Shown piece after piece: positions 2,268 through 62,330 of a stretch of 64,000 bases of DNA. Positions within the stretch are counted from its first letter, which is position 1; each line of letters starts with the position of its first letter. The translations under genes were made by a program, and so were the position numbers. Below the pieces are notes generated by a model. The model saw only the letters and a program-made list of their open reading frames with translations. It was not told the DNA's origin and did not search any database. Source of the DNA: Bradyrhizobium elkanii WSM2783 (lineage in GTDB: Bacteria; Pseudomonadota; Alphaproteobacteria; Rhizobiales; Xanthobacteraceae); contig NZ_AXAP01000006.1 in NCBI RefSeq assembly GCF_000472865.1, positions 1 through 64,000 of the forward strand, in the 5' to 3' direction.

Positions 2268-2282
2268 GAACACATATCGAAC
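2268..2282. promoter_or_regulatory. LexA operator (SOS box) of lexA
   Basis: The sequence is GAAC-N7-GAAC, a perfect match to the alphaproteobacterial LexA box. It lies about 125 bases before the lexA start. A possible -35 (TTGCGG, 2263-2268) and a weak -10 (TAGTGT, 2286-2291) flank it, so bound LexA would cover the promoter. A second, imperfect half-pair, GTTC-N7-GTTT, lies at 2294-2308. Confidence 0.85.
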
Positions 2283-2406
2283 ATATAGTGTCCGTTCATG
2301 ATTTGTTTCGAAACTCGCTGTCTACGAATGGGAGTGCGAGACTCCCGAGATCAGCTCTTCTCAAGTCTCGGATCGAACGACGCTACCAACCGGGGGAATG
2401 CTCGCG

Positions 2407-3108
2407 ATGCTTACGCGCAAACAGTATGAACTTCTGCGTTTCATCAACGAACGGCTGAAAGAGGCCGGCGTGCCTCCTTCCTTCGACGAGATGAAGGACG
2501 CGCTCGACCTGCGCTCGAAGTCCGGCATCCACCGCCTGATCACGGCGCTGGAGGAACGGGGCTTCATCCGCCGCCTGCCGAACCGCGCCCGCGCGATCGA
2601 GGTGATCAAGCTGCCCGAGCTCTCCGCCGCCGGCAACGGTCGCCGCGGCTTCACGCCAAGCGTCATCGAGGGCACGCTCGGCAAGCGCACGACCAGCGCG
2701 GCCGTGGCCGAAGACGATGGCAACCGTCCCGTCGCCGTTCCCGTGATGGGCCGGATCGCGGCGGGTACGCCGATCGAGGCGCTGCAGACCCGCAGCCACA
2801 CCATCAGCGTGCCGCCCGACATGCTCGGCTCCGGCGAGCACTATGCGCTCGAGGTACGCGGCGATTCCATGGTCGAGGCCGGCATCCTCGACGGCGACAT
2901 GGCGCTGATCCAGCGTAACGACACCGCCAACACCGGCGACATCGTGGTGGCGCTGATCGATGAGGAGGAGGCGACGCTGAAGCGCTTCCGTCGCCGCGGC
3001 GCGTCAATCGCGCTTGAGCCTGCCAATGCGGCCTACGAAGTCCGCATCCTGCCGCCGAACCGGGTGCGGATCCAGGGCAAGCTGATCGGGCTTTATCGCA
3101 AGTACTGA
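2407..3108 (+). CDS. lexA: SOS repressor LexA
   Basis: LexA represses DNA-damage genes and cleaves itself when RecA filaments form. The 233-aa protein has an N-terminal winged-helix domain starting [10 protein letters not shown] and a C-terminal S24 protease domain. The scissile Ala119-Gly120 sits in RIAAGTP, the catalytic Ser154 in GDSMVEAG and the catalytic Lys192 in ATLKRF. An in-frame ATG at 2398 exists, but the GGGG at 2392-2396 is too close to it and is better placed for the ATG at 2407, which also gives the usual family N-terminus. Autoregulation is indicated by the LexA box at 2268-2282. Confidence 0.97.
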
Positions 3109-34325: not shown

Positions 34326-37300
34326 TCACAGCGTTTCGACCATCTCGACGCCGGTCACCGCCTTGATTGCGCCGGCGATCTGCGGGGATACCTGGAAGCG
34401 GCCTTCGAGCTTGAATTCGACCTCGGTCTCCAGATCGAGCCGCAGCACCAGCGCGACGTCGCCACCGGTGCCGTTGCCCGGCTGAAGCCGCTTGGCGATC
34501 GAGTCCAGCGGCTTGGTGTCGCGCAGGAAGATGCGCAGGCCCTTTTGCGTCTTGGCGGCTGCGGCATCGAGCGGCTCGGCATGCAGCACGCGGGCGCGGA
34601 CGTCCTCGCCCTGCAGCTCGGCGCCGAGCTGCAGCAGCACGGCTGCGCCCGGCTCCAGCACGTCGCGGTATTGCGCCAATCCTTCGGAAAACAGCACCGC
34701 CTCGAAATGGCCCGTGGGATCGGACAGGCCCATGATGCCCATCTTGTTGCCGGTCTTGGTGCGCCGCTCCATGCGCGACACCACCGTTGCCGCGACCTTG
34801 CCGGCGGTCGCACCGGTTTTGACCGCGCGCGAGAACTCGGCCCAGGATTGCACGCGCAATCGCTTCAAGGCCGTGGCGTAGTCGTCGAGCGGGTGACCCG
34901 ACAGGAAGAAGCCGATGGCGTCATATTCGCGTCGCAGCCGATCCGCCGGCAGCCACGGCTCGACCTGCGGCAGCACGATGCTCGGCGCGTCCGAAAGCCC
35001 GCCAAACATATCGTTCTGGCCCGATGTCGCGGCCTCATGGCTCCGCTGGCAGGCGGCGAGGATCGCATCGGCGCCGGCGAAGACGCGGGCCCGGTTCGGG
35101 TCGAGCGAATCGAAGGCGCCGGCGGCGGCGAGGCTTTCGATGATGCGCTTATTGATTGCGCGCGGGCTCACGCGCGCCGCGAAATCGGCCAGCGATGTGA
35201 AGGCCCCCTTGCGCCGCTCCTCCACGATCTGCTCGACCGCCTGCAGACCGACGCCTTTCAGCGCGGCCAATGCGTAGTAGATCGTCTTGTCGCCGACATC
35301 GAACGTTGCGCCGGAACGATTGACGTCGGGCGGCTCGACCTTGATCCCCAGCCGCTGTGCCTCGGCACGGAATTCGGAGAGCTTGTCCGTATTGTTGAGT
35401 TCGAGCGTCATCGACGCTGCCAGGAACTCCACGGGATAATGCGCCTTCATATAGGCGGTCTGATAGGAGACCAGCGCATAGGCCGCGGCGTGGCTCTTGT
35501 TGAAGCCGTAGTCGGCGAACTTGGCGAGCAACTCGAAGATCGTCTCCGCCTGCCCTTTCGGCACGCCATTCTTGACTGCGCCGGCGACGAAGATCTCGCG
35601 CTGCTTCTCCATCTCGGCGCGAATCTTCTTGCCCATGGCGCGGCGCAACAGGTCGGCTTGGCCGAGCGTGTAGCCTGCCATCTGCTGCGCGATCTGCATC
35701 ACCTGCTCCTGGTAGATGATGACGCCGAACGTCTCTTTCAGGATCGGCTCCAGGATCGGATGCAGATATTCCGGCTCTTCGTCGCCGTGCTTGCGCGCGC
35801 AATAGGTCGGGATGTTGGCCATCGGGCCGGGGCGATACAGCGCCACCAGCGCGATGATGTCCTCGAAACGGTCCGGCCGCATGTCGATCAGCGCGCGCCG
35901 CATGCCCTGGCTTTCAACCTGGAACACGCCGACCACATCGCCCCGCGCCAGCATCTGATAGCTTTTGGCATCGTCGATCGGCAGCGTAGCCAGATCGACA
36001 TGCACATCGCGCTGCTTGAGCAGCCTCACGGCGACATCAAGCACCGTCAGCGTCTTCAGGCCAAGGAAGTCGAACTTCACAAGCCCCGCCGGCTCGACCC
36101 ATTTCATGTTGAACTGGGTCACCGGCATGTCGGATTTGGGATCGCGGTAGAGCGGCACGAGCTCGCTCAAGGGGCGGTCGCCGATCACGATGCCGGCGGC
36201 GTGGGTCGACGCGTGCCGCGTCAGACCTTCCAGGCGCTGCGCGATATCGAAGGCGCGCGCGACCACCGGATCCTCGTCGCGGAAAGCCTGCAGCTTGGGT
36301 TCGCCCTCGATCGCCTGCGCCAGCGTCACGGGCGCGGCGGGATTTTGCGGCACCAGCTTGGTTAGCTTGTCGACCTGGCCATAGGGCATCTGCAGCACAC
36401 GGCCGACGTCGCGCAGCACGCCGCGCGCCTGCAGCGTACCGAAGGTGATGATCTGCGCCACCTGGTCGCGGCCGTAGCGCTCCTGCACATAGGAGATCAC
36501 CTCGCCGCGACGATCCTGGCAGAAGTCGATGTCGAAGTCCGGCATCGACACGCGTTCGGGATTGAGGAAGCGCTCGAACAGCAGCCCGAATCGGATCGGA
36601 TCGAGATCGGTGATCGTCAGCGCCCAGGCAACCAGCGAGCCTGCGCCGGAGCCACGGCCCGGCCCGACCGGGATGTCGTGGGCCTTGGCCCATTTGATGA
36701 AGTCGGAGACGATCAGGAAGTAGCCCGCATAGTTCATGCGGTTGATGACGTCGATCTCGAAGGCGAGACGCTTCTGATAGTCCTCTTCCGTGATGCCCGG
36801 CGACAAGCCGTGGATCCGCAGACGCCTCGCGAGCCCCTCCTCGGCCTGGCGCATCAGCTCCGCCGCCTCCTCGCTTGCCGCATCGGAGGCCGATCCGGCG
36901 CCGACTGTGAAGCGCGGCAAGATCGGCTTGCGTGTCCTTGGCCGGAACGAGCAGCGCTCGGCGATCTCGACCGTCGACGCCAGGGCTTCAGGAATATCCG
37001 CAAACAGCACCGCCATCTCGGCGCGTGTCTTGAAGCGGTGGTCGGGCGTGAGCTGCTCGCGATCGGTCTCTGCGATCAGCCGGCCGCCGGCAATGCACAG
37101 CAGCGCATCGTGGGCCTCGTAGTCGTCGGTGCTCGCGAAATAGGGCTCGTTGGTCGCAACCAGCGGCAGCCCCTTCGTATAGGCAAGATCGATCAGGCCG
37201 GCCTCGGTGCGGCGCTCTTTGTCGATGCCGTGGCGCTGCAGCTCGATATAGAGGCGGTCGCCGAATAGGCTTGCCAGCCGGTCGCAACGCGTGGCGGCAA

Positions 37301-37772
37301 GGCTCGCTTGATCGGCCGCGAACGCAAGCGTGATCGGCCCGTCCGGACCGCCGGTCAGCGCGATCAGGTCCTCGGCATCGTCCGTCAGCCAGTCGAACTT
37401 GATATGCGGCAACTGGTGGACGGGCGTCTCCAGGAACGCCCGCGAGTTCAGCCGCATCAGGCTGCGATAGCCGCGTTCGCGCGCGGCGAGCAGCACGATT
37501 CGGGCCGGAGCGCCGGCCAGCACACTGCGCGAATTCGGATCGACGTCGCCGAAATCGATCGCGAGTTCACAGCCGACAATAGGCTGGATGCCATAGCCGG
37601 CCATCTTGTCGGAGAATTCCAGCGCCCCGAACATGTTGTCGGTGTCGGTCAGCGCCAGCGCCGGCTGGCGGTCCGCCTTGGCGAGCTCGCCGAGCTTGGC
37701 GATCTTGATCGAACCCTTCAGCAGCGAATAGGCCGAATGAACGTGAAGATGGACGAATCCGGCACTGGGCAT
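34326..37772 (-). CDS. dnaE: DNA polymerase III alpha subunit
   Basis: This is the replicative C-family polymerase. The 1148-aa protein has the N-terminal PHP domain (FVHLHVHSAYSLLKGSIKI), the palm with GPGRGSGAGSLVAWAL and the catalytic PDFDIDFCQDRRGEVI, the finger region (GFNKSHAAAYALVSYQ), a helix-hairpin-helix and a C-terminal OB domain. I read it as the housekeeping DnaE1 from length and motifs. The start is the ATG at 37772, as the frame upstream to 37853 lacks conservation. An SOS-controlled microprotein gene lies 205 bases upstream on the same strand. Confidence 0.95.
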   Translation of the reverse strand: MPSAGFVHLHVHSAYSLLKGSIKIAKLGELAKADRQPALALTDTDNMFGALEFSDKMAGYGIQPIVGCELAIDFGDVDPNSRSVLAGAPARIVLLAARERGYRSLMRLNSRAFLETPVHQLPHIKFDWLTDDAEDLIALTGGPDGPITLAFAADQASLAATRCDRLASLFGDRLYIELQRHGIDKERRTEAGLIDLAYTKGLPLVATNEPYFASTDDYEAHDALLCIAGGRLIAETDREQLTPDHRFKTRAEMAVLFADIPEALASTVEIAERCSFRPRTRKPILPRFTVGAGSASDAASEEAAELMRQAEEGLARRLRIHGLSPGITEEDYQKRLAFEIDVINRMNYAGYFLIVSDFIKWAKAHDIPVGPGRGSGAGSLVAWALTITDLDPIRFGLLFERFLNPERVSMPDFDIDFCQDRRGEVISYVQERYGRDQVAQIITFGTLQARGVLRDVGRVLQMPYGQVDKLTKLVPQNPAAPVTLAQAIEGEPKLQAFRDEDPVVARAFDIAQRLEGLTRHASTHAAGIVIGDRPLSELVPLYRDPKSDMPVTQFNMKWVEPAGLVKFDFLGLKTLTVLDVAVRLLKQRDVHVDLATLPIDDAKSYQMLARGDVVGVFQVESQGMRRALIDMRPDRFEDIIALVALYRPGPMANIPTYCARKHGDEEPEYLHPILEPILKETFGVIIYQEQVMQIAQQMAGYTLGQADLLRRAMGKKIRAEMEKQREIFVAGAVKNGVPKGQAETIFELLAKFADYGFNKSHAAAYALVSYQTAYMKAHYPVEFLAASMTLELNNTDKLSEFRAEAQRLGIKVEPPDVNRSGATFDVGDKTIYYALAALKGVGLQAVEQIVEERRKGAFTSLADFAARVSPRAINKRIIESLAAAGAFDSLDPNRARVFAGADAILAACQRSHEAATSGQNDMFGGLSDAPSIVLPQVEPWLPADRLRREYDAIGFFLSGHPLDDYATALKRLRVQSWAEFSRAVKTGATAGKVAATVVSRMERRTKTGNKMGIMGLSDPTGHFEAVLFSEGLAQYRDVLEPGAAVLLQLGAELQGEDVRARVLHAEPLDAAAAKTQKGLRIFLRDTKPLDSIAKRLQPGNGTGGDVALVLRLDLETEVEFKLEGRFQVSPQIAGAIKAVTGVEMVETL

Positions 37773-37977: not shown

Positions 37978-38076
37978 TCAGAACTGCGGAATCAACTGCG
38001 CCCAGACCGCGATCATTCCAATGAACAGCGTGATCGATGCCAGCGCCGCCGCCTCTTCGACGAAAATCTTCAACAT
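37978..38076 (-). CDS. SOS-controlled single-pass membrane microprotein (32 aa)
   Basis: A 33-codon frame encodes a short charged N-terminus (MLKIFVEE), one hydrophobic helix (AAALASITLFIGMIAVWAQL) and a tail IPQF. An ideal ribosome binding site, AAGGAG, lies eight bases before the ATG at 38076. Two perfect LexA boxes (38095-38109 and 38113-38127) lie 19-51 bases upstream, so the gene is very probably repressed by LexA and induced by DNA damage. I recall near-identical unannotated frames in other bradyrhizobia. Size, topology and control recall SidA, the 29-aa SOS division inhibitor of Caulobacter. The function here is inference only. Confidence 0.75.
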   Translation of the reverse strand: MLKIFVEEAAALASITLFIGMIAVWAQLIPQF

Positions 38077-38094
38077 CGGCCGTCTCCTTGATGA

Positions 38095-38127
38095 GAACAT
38101 ACGAGGAACATTGTTCCTTATTTGTTC
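38095..38127. promoter_or_regulatory. Tandem perfect LexA boxes
   Basis: GAAC-N7-GAAC at 38095-38109 is followed after three bases by GTTC-N7-GTTC at 38113-38127, and the junction GGAACATTGTTCC is itself palindromic. A possible -35 for the minus strand, TTGACT, lies at 38137-38132. The boxes cover the core promoter of the 32-aa gene. Confidence 0.9.
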
Positions 38128-38214
38128 ATGGAGTCAAGGCCGAGCCGTCGGGCTGCCGCGGAGAATCGAACGCGAATGAAGCGGGTGGTTAATGCGCGGC
38201 CGCAACCAGCAAGG

Positions 38215-61268: not shown

Positions 61269-62330
61269 TCACGGGACATCATCCCATGAGCCTGGTGTCC
61301 TCTGTCCCTTCCAGAGATAGGGCTCGGCCAGCCCGTAACCGAACAGCATCGGAACTATGAAGGACCAGTGCGTGCCCATGTAGCCGTAGGTGAAGGCTTC
61401 GCTGATGTTGCCGAAAACCGGCCCGATCAGGTCGAACAAGAGTTTCGTCACCAGATAGGCGAGCAATAGGCAAAAGCTGGACGCCGCCAATCCACCCCAC
61501 GGCATGGGAATCTGGGAGAACGGCCAGTTGTGAATGGGGATCAAAACGCCATAGGTAACCGAACAGGCGACCATGAACCACAACAGCCAGTATTGATCGT
61601 CGGTGAAGTATCCGATGGACCAGAAATTCCCGACGCCGGGCTTGGCGGAATCCCACAGCCCCAAATAGCGGCTGACCCATAGGCAGAGCAGCACGGTCAG
61701 GAAGAGGATCGCCATCTGCGTAAACCCGCGACCCGGTTGTTTCATACCCCGCGTCCAGTATGCGAGCAGCCCCGTAGCGGCCCCCATCTGCACGAAGGGA
61801 AACCACCAGGCCGGTATCCAGCGCACCACCGAACTCGTAACGAGATAGGTGCAGAAGCCGATCAGAACCAGCAGAATGAAAAACTGCCGGTACGGCGGCA
61901 TACCCGCCACGATCCAGTTCTCACCCGTGAATGAAAAGAACGCCAGAAAGAAGAAGATGCATCCGACGATCGGAAATATCCAATCGGCGCCAAGCCCGCT
62001 CCAGTAGATCGACTTTGCCGATAACCAGCCCAGCATCCACGAAGCTGCAACGATGACAAATCCGCGCGCGAGATTGTTCTTGATCCGATCAAACGGCCAG
62101 CCGCAACATACGATTGACAGCAGGGCCCACCACAGACTGAGCAATTGCCAGGTGACGTTATCCAGCCAGAACATCTGGCTGATCTGATCGCTGCTCCATG
62201 GTCCGATCGGCATCGCCTTCACGATCAGATTGACGATGAAACACGAAAGTATCGTGAGCCCGTAGACCAACGCCAATCCCTTGATCGACGAATTAAGTCG
62301 TAATGGCGCAACCTCGATCGCATACTGCAT
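61269..62330 (-). CDS. Unrecognised polytopic membrane protein (about ten helices)
   Basis: This 353-aa protein starts MQYAIEVAPLRLNSSIKG and has about ten hydrophobic helices rich in Trp and Phe (LSLWWALLSIVCCGWPF, WIFPIVGCIFFFLAFFSF, QYWLLWFMVACSVTYGVLI). Short loops are conserved-looking, with Trp-Pro pairs (HNWPFSQIPMPWGG). It does not resemble MFS, ABC or Trk proteins, and I cannot name a family. AGGAGGGG, eight bases upstream, fixes the ATG at 62330 against the longer frame to 62438. It is the second gene of the sigma-54 unit, so a role in substrate uptake or membrane-bound oxidation is inferred. Confidence 0.8.
   Translation of the reverse strand: MQYAIEVAPLRLNSSIKGLALVYGLTILSCFIVNLIVKAMPIGPWSSDQISQMFWLDNVTWQLLSLWWALLSIVCCGWPFDRIKNNLARGFVIVAASWMLGWLSAKSIYWSGLGADWIFPIVGCIFFFLAFFSFTGENWIVAGMPPYRQFFILLVLIGFCTYLVTSSVVRWIPAWWFPFVQMGAATGLLAYWTRGMKQPGRGFTQMAILFLTVLLCLWVSRYLGLWDSAKPGVGNFWSIGYFTDDQYWLLWFMVACSVTYGVLIPIHNWPFSQIPMPWGGLAASSFCLLLAYLVTKLLFDLIGPVFGNISEAFTYGYMGTHWSFIVPMLFGYGLAEPYLWKGQRTPGSWDDVP

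Follow-up and report, generated by a model that had tools for sequence, protein, structure and literature searches.

Does Bradyrhizobium elkanii WSM2783 possess an SOS-controlled inhibitor of cell division? This question is raised by a very short reading frame upstream of dnaE in the first 64,000 nucleotides (nt) of contig NZ_AXAP01000006.1, the stretch of DNA that was analysed and that we refer to as the window. A sequence-only reading of this DNA had proposed that the frame, which is preceded by two perfect LexA boxes, encodes a peptide of 32 amino acids (aa) similar to Caulobacter SidA in size, topology and control, in an organism with no obvious SulA. SidA is a 29-aa inner-membrane protein that is induced in the SOS response and acts on FtsW (PMC4211646; this and the other papers are cited from excerpts of their text). 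The comparisons described below lead us to think it very probable that the 32-aa peptide is an SOS checkpoint peptide and this organism's orthologue of SidA, because its similarity, its place in the chromosome and its control, taken together, all point to SidA.

A conserved reading frame behind an inverted pair of LexA boxes

The peptide MLKIFVEEAAALASITLFIGMIAVWAQLIPQF is the translation of the minus-strand frame listed in Table 1 (32 aa, then a stop). A search of the window's family matched 111 of 149 genomes at E ≤ 1, 106 of these at E ≤ 0.001. Ninety family loci were examined, five of which were dropped before counting: L050, L070, L083 and L089, which are second copies or weak matches with no dnaE found, and L085, whose start is unclear. 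The family counts that follow refer to the remaining 85 loci, the window included. The frame has 32 codons in 76 of these, 33 in 6 and 34 in 3. The sequence-only reading had left it to the synonymous pattern to tell whether the frame is coding, and the differences between homologues, which that reading had also asked to be inspected for frameshifts, proved to be mostly silent. The ratio of nonsynonymous to synonymous differences (pN/pS) was 0.156 for the 7 loci of the window's genus, 0.165 for the 41 of the near clade (which include those 7) and 0.392 for the remaining 43, L084 having been additionally excluded from these sets. Shifted frames gave values of 0.94 to 5.75 over the sets (1.4 and 5.8 in the window's own genus, with those of the near clade inside that range). 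Because codon changes occur mostly at silent sites and the length is constant at 32 to 34 codons, the alignments indicate that the frame is a real gene, with selection on amino acids across its whole length.

An alternative in-frame ATG is found at 38100. We prefer the start at 38076, since its Met is conserved and is preceded by a ribosome binding site, whereas the ATG at 38100 is located within a LexA box. A Shine-Dalgarno-like motif is present upstream of the frame in 81 of the 85 loci. Structure prediction yielded a single helix at residues 2–31 (mean predicted local distance difference test score, 96), and the peptide's length and its predicted single membrane helix agree with those of SidA (approximately 29 aa, one helix). 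A peptide of 32 aa is too short for most gene finders; no match to it was found in Pfam or NCBIfam, one weak match was obtained in PHROGs (E 0.027), and a search of plasmid and phage records gave none at E ≤ 1. The dnaE gene starts 205 nt beyond the stop codon of the peptide. Within the fetched DNA, dnaE was located downstream in 81 of the 85 loci, at a distance of approximately 93 to 1100 nt, and perhaps shares a transcript with the peptide gene.

On the strand of the gene, the operator reads GAAC-N7-GAAC-AAT-GTTC-N7-GTTC, and GTTC-N7-GTTC is the Caulobacter SOS box (PMC9578287). Lone exact boxes are common by chance (230 in the 9.9-Mb genome versus 266 for the backwards pattern), and the window holds 4 versus 1.7 expected. 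The inverted pair GAAC-N7-GAAC-N3-GTTC-N7-GTTC, with up to one mismatch allowed, occurs at one place in the genome, namely here, where it is exact; its reversed control, at the same stringency, occurs nowhere in the 9.9 Mb. Both boxes are present within 130 nt upstream of the frame in 76 of the 85 family loci and at least one exact box in all 85, with a 3-nt spacer separating the two boxes in 65. Control repeat spacings (3–6 and 8–11) were found in 0 to 3 of the 85 loci, and a control stretch from −400 to −270 contained boxes in none of 83. Of the 81 loci with the far box, 75 have the sequence TTGAC starting 8 to 11 nt upstream of it; in the control stretch, this was found in 0 loci. The LexA operator thus appears to overlie the predicted promoter, an arrangement in keeping with that of a SidA gene. 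The two-box operator is inverted in the window's family and tandem in Brevundimonas-like genomes (GAAC..GAAC-N3-GAAC..GAAC; L201, L205 and L206), with the same 18-nt step.

The SulA domain (PF03846) had no match in this genome, in a search whose control detects it in Escherichia coli. The sequence-only reading therefore stands in its account of the locus: the short frame with its ribosome binding site, the single hydrophobic helix with a charged N-terminus (as predicted), the two exact boxes, dnaE downstream and the lack of an obvious SulA.

Table 1. Features of the window, with positions counted from its first nucleotide.
Feature	Position	Strand	Basis or remark
SidA-like microprotein gene, 32 codons and stop	37978..38076	-	translation, family search, pN/pS, predicted helix
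Ribosome binding site AAGGAG, 7 nt 5′ of ATG	38084..38089	-	read from sequence
Near LexA box, GTTC-N7-GTTC on minus strand	38095..38109	-	exact match
Far LexA box, GAAC-N7-GAAC on minus strand, overlapping the promoter-like pair	38113..38127	-	exact match
Promoter-like pair: TTGACT (38137-38132), 16 nt, AACAAT (38115-38110)	38110..38137	-	consensus match alone
dnaE, replicative-type DNA polymerase III alpha, downstream neighbour	34326..37772	-	start as taken; frame open to 37853
lexA, 236 aa, presumed repressor	2398..3108	+	Pfam LexA_DNA_bind, E 3.5e-16
LexA box, same type, 5′ of lexA	2268..2282	+	exact match

Relationship to the SidA-like frame of Caulobacter

One family was taken as Caulobacteraceae and was searched with a Brevundimonas-like peptide, which matched 102 of its 119 genomes at E ≤ 1. 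Fifty of these Caulobacteraceae-like loci were examined: all carry a frame of 29–31 aa that is followed by dnaE, and an exact box lies no more than 150 nt away in 40. One of the genomes is that of Caulobacter vibrioides DSM 9893 (L251 and L231, identical in DNA), whose PopZ equals that of C. crescentus; PopZ did not distinguish Caulobacteraceae across the class but did so within one family. Here, a 29-aa frame is located behind a LexA box approximately 35 nt before dnaE. The published gene number of sidA is CCNA_02004 (PMC10769358). The gene lexA is CC1902 = CCNA_01979, recN is CC1983 = CCNA_02062 and dnaE is CC1926. The correspondences for lexA and recN place CCNA_02004 at or next to dnaE; hence, the C. 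vibrioides frame agrees with published SidA in its length, its control and its gene number. The place before dnaE is common to the window peptide and its Caulobacter counterpart.

The comparison with SidA made in the sequence-only reading was thus extended beyond size, topology and control. The window peptide resembles SidA in length (32 versus 29 aa), in its predicted single membrane helix, in its LexA box and in its place just before dnaE, and it shares with the C. vibrioides frame the pattern E-x-x-A-L-x-S-[VI]-x-x-F-x-x-M. The two differ in that the window has two inverted boxes and C. vibrioides has one, in the position of a Trp residue (25 in the window peptide, 19 in that of C. vibrioides), and in the distance to dnaE given above. 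On a profile of the Caulobacteraceae peptides, the window peptide scored 7.4 bits, a value reached by 23 of 20000 shuffled sequences; when the charged and hydrophobic parts were shuffled apart, which preserves the layout of the peptide, p was 0.0025. On the same profile, 40 of the 72 distinct family peptides exceeded the 99th percentile of shuffles. In the opposite direction, on a profile of the window's family, 286 of 20000 shuffles scored as high as the C. vibrioides peptide and 401 as high as the Brevundimonas-like one; with layout-preserving shuffles, p was 0.0285 and 0.0265, respectively. Alignment of profile against profile (hhalign) gave P 0.0008, with 32% identity over 25 columns. Because the direct similarity is modest (p 0.001–0.03, by direction and control), we base the case on similarity, place and control jointly.

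As the direct similarity is insufficient alone, boxed, helical frames before dnaE from other groups were scored too. Among 80 class genomes, an exact box was found within 500 nt upstream of dnaE in 20, and a qualifying frame stood behind the box in 14; in the controls, other spacings gave 0–6 boxes and 0–2 frames, and the opposite strand gave 1 frame. A scan of named genomes, in which a box with up to one mismatch was accepted, found a candidate in 32 of 38 Caulobacteraceae-like loci and in 7 of 42 others. Examples of candidates are those of Rhizobium alvei (MTEFLRDMAAFTSIIMFVASIAVFAISF), Stappia indica, Roseibium polysiphoniae, Parvularcula oceani, Asticcacaulis, Brevundimonas and Phenylobacterium. 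From the two scans, 22 other-group frames were chosen by box, length and helix before dnaE, 15 from 14 class-scan loci and 7 from the named genomes; the 38 Caulobacteraceae-like loci and one L312 frame inside the upstream gene were left out, the L313 frame was shortened to an internal start, and the box of L311 has one mismatch. Thirteen of the 22 beat layout-preserving shuffles (p < 0.05) on the window-family profile and nine did so on the Caulobacteraceae profile. The corresponding Fisher p values, 5e-18 and 6e-12, are both too small, because the genomes behind several of the frames are related. An acidic residue provides the last charge before the helix in 21 of the 22 frames, in all 72 distinct peptides of the window's family and in 42 of the 45 from Caulobacteraceae, versus 42% of control segments. 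We interpret these scores as signs of a sequence homology to SidA (taken to be the C. vibrioides frame) that is significant but weak when compared directly, and that is bridged by other groups.

Spread of the peptide in Alphaproteobacteria and on viral contigs

A profile built from the window's family alone (A1) matched 123 of 389 class genomes at E ≤ 1, with a best E value outside family f1 of 0.004, and was rejected as giving no convincing class-wide match. The wider family was revealed by position before dnaE and then by a mixed profile, A3, which matched 42 of the 389 genomes at E ≤ 0.05. In the best 30 of the A3 loci, dnaE was found approximately 27–266 nt downstream in 29 and a box upstream in 29, although neither was used by the search. 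Eleven of the 30 come from genomes with a row in A3; for the other 19, some of whose peptides are identical to A3 rows, the counts were 18 for dnaE and 18 for the box. At L371 (G518), a SidA-like peptide has a LexA box 47 nt upstream and no dnaE within the fetched locus, and is perhaps a relocated copy.

SidA-like peptides of 30–32 aa were also seen on IMG/VR viral contigs (L335:3001-3096, L338:3001-3090, L339:2986-3081, L340:2535-2627, L341 and L336/L337, the start codons of the last two being unclear). The L335 peptide is 56% identical to the window peptide. These viral-contig peptides have no dnaE in the fetched DNA and no exact LexA box within 150 nt, and several, as judged by eye, are tightly packed among small neighbour genes. 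They may be division inhibitors captured by phages. A further IMG/VR contig, L334, is host-like DNA that carries dnaE and a box.

Proposed function and alternative explanations

By analogy with SidA, we infer damage induction, membrane insertion and a block of septation via FtsW/I/N. In the undamaged cell, LexA bound at the operator pair would block RNA polymerase; RecA on single-stranded DNA would trigger LexA cleavage, and the peptide would then be made. It would enter the inner membrane as one helix, the charged N-terminus facing the cytoplasm, and, like Caulobacter SidA, would bind FtsW (and FtsN), thereby keeping the assembled FtsW/I/N complex inactive and delaying septation. Levels of DnaE may also rise through read-through. 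Models in a 2026 paper place SidA at transmembrane segment 7 of FtsW, by that paper's own word not with high confidence (PMC13396833).

Several observations weigh against the assignment of the peptide as a SidA orthologue. The frame and boxes that the sequence-only reading had expected in related genomes are conserved in the 85 loci, although 38 of the 149 family genomes have no match. A match is likewise missing in 17 of the 119 Caulobacteraceae-like genomes, and 10 of the 50 Caulobacteraceae-like loci have no exact box within 150 nt. The class scan yielded a box in just 20 of the 80 genomes and a frame in just 14, and in 5 of the 20 boxed loci (L143, L153, L157, L162 and L182) the box lies 49–82 nt before dnaE and no frame intervenes, so that dnaE itself may be under direct LexA control in these genomes. 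No candidate was found in 35 of the 42 named-genome loci outside the Caulobacteraceae-like set, among them all Rhodobacter-type genera, Aliihoeflea, Mesorhizobium and the loci outside Alphaproteobacteria, and three second A3 matches (G513, G150 and G253) are located elsewhere. Compared directly, the peptide is only weakly similar to SidA (hhalign probability, 24%), and W19, which is nearly invariant in Caulobacteraceae, is not retained in the window peptide. One of 100 unrelated membrane segments matches the window's score on the Caulobacteraceae profile; in the reverse direction, p is 0.014–0.029, and the C. vibrioides and Brevundimonas-like peptides are equalled by 2 and 4 of 100 control segments, respectively. 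The identity of the C. vibrioides frame with SidA rests on length, control and gene number, and not on a printed sequence. Even so, the kinship of the window peptide to the Caulobacter peptide appears well supported by the sequence comparisons as a whole.

E. coli TisB and DinQ are type I toxins, which are paired with an antisense RNA and encoded at a different locus. A LexA-controlled membrane peptide of their type, which would lower membrane energisation and slow growth with no divisome binding, would be of equal size class, with one helix under SOS control (PMC3567139, PMC8145889). We consider such a role for the window peptide unlikely, because of its recurrent place before dnaE and its kinship in sequence with the SidA-like frame of C. 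vibrioides. It is slightly less likely still that the peptide belongs to the SidA family and has a shifted target, for example, another envelope complex of polar-growing bacteria and not FtsW. Polar growth does occur in the group to which this organism belongs, and few positions are common with SidA (the acidic residue before the helix, L, S and F), but FtsW/I/N is, as far as is known, general, and the same control and the same place argue for the same job.

The least probable of the alternatives, in our view, is that the LexA boxes serve dnaE and that the frame is a mere leader peptide tuning dnaE translation. The presence of dnaE downstream in nearly all family loci, on a transcript that is perhaps common, would suit such a leader, as would the five boxed class loci without a frame, which look as if LexA controls dnaE. 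Selection on amino acids over the whole frame is difficult to reconcile with this explanation, as are the varying distance to dnaE and the retention of the box at L371, where no dnaE was found in the fetched DNA. We therefore favour the assignment of the peptide as the SidA orthologue. A wider hypothesis, which we offer tentatively and which may well prove wrong, is that sidA is an ancestral alphaproteobacterial SOS module, in which a divisome-blocking micropeptide and the replicative polymerase share one LexA promoter and keep their place while the sequence drifts almost beyond recognition, and that phages captured the peptide but not its LexA box, which may leave them free to block host division at will.

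Other small division inhibitors of the membrane differ from the window peptide in various ways. YneA, SosA, ChiZ and DivS of Gram-positive bacteria have other lengths and domains, and are set apart here by description only. They resemble the window peptide in that they are damage-induced small membrane division inhibitors (PMC13396833). Caulobacter DidA is likewise a small one-helix division inhibitor, but has 71 aa, is SOS-independent (DriD) and binds FtsN (PMC4211646). Among the matches listed in our literature search, which are known from excerpts, there was no report of a SidA homologue outside Caulobacter and no published DNA-damage transcriptome for Bradyrhizobium. If the assignment as SidA is true, it names the missing SOS division inhibitor for a large group of soil bacteria and symbionts, and SidA, described for Caulobacter alone in the literature found, is one member of a wider family linked to dnaE. 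The checkpoint could then be tested in many organisms, using a single small construct for each, and the natural sequence diversity would help to map the FtsW contact.

Other features of the window and further copies

The presumed repressor gene, lexA, is encoded in the window (Table 1) and is presumably self-regulated through the box upstream of it. A second, weaker LexA-type domain (E 8.7e-8) is encoded on another contig. The remaining exact box of the window, at 61341-61355, is inside a long frame and is probably a chance occurrence.

Second matches were seen in a few family genomes. At L050:1515-1613 on the minus strand (G114), a second 32-aa copy, MFFSLIEEAASLASVTLFIAAIALWSDVLARF, has no exact box and is located beside what appears by eye to be an alkaline phosphatase D-like gene; it is perhaps a paralogue outside SOS control. 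The weak second matches at L070 (G140) and L089 (G120) also have no exact box, and L070 adjoins a frame that, by eye, is integrase-like; both are possible prophage copies.
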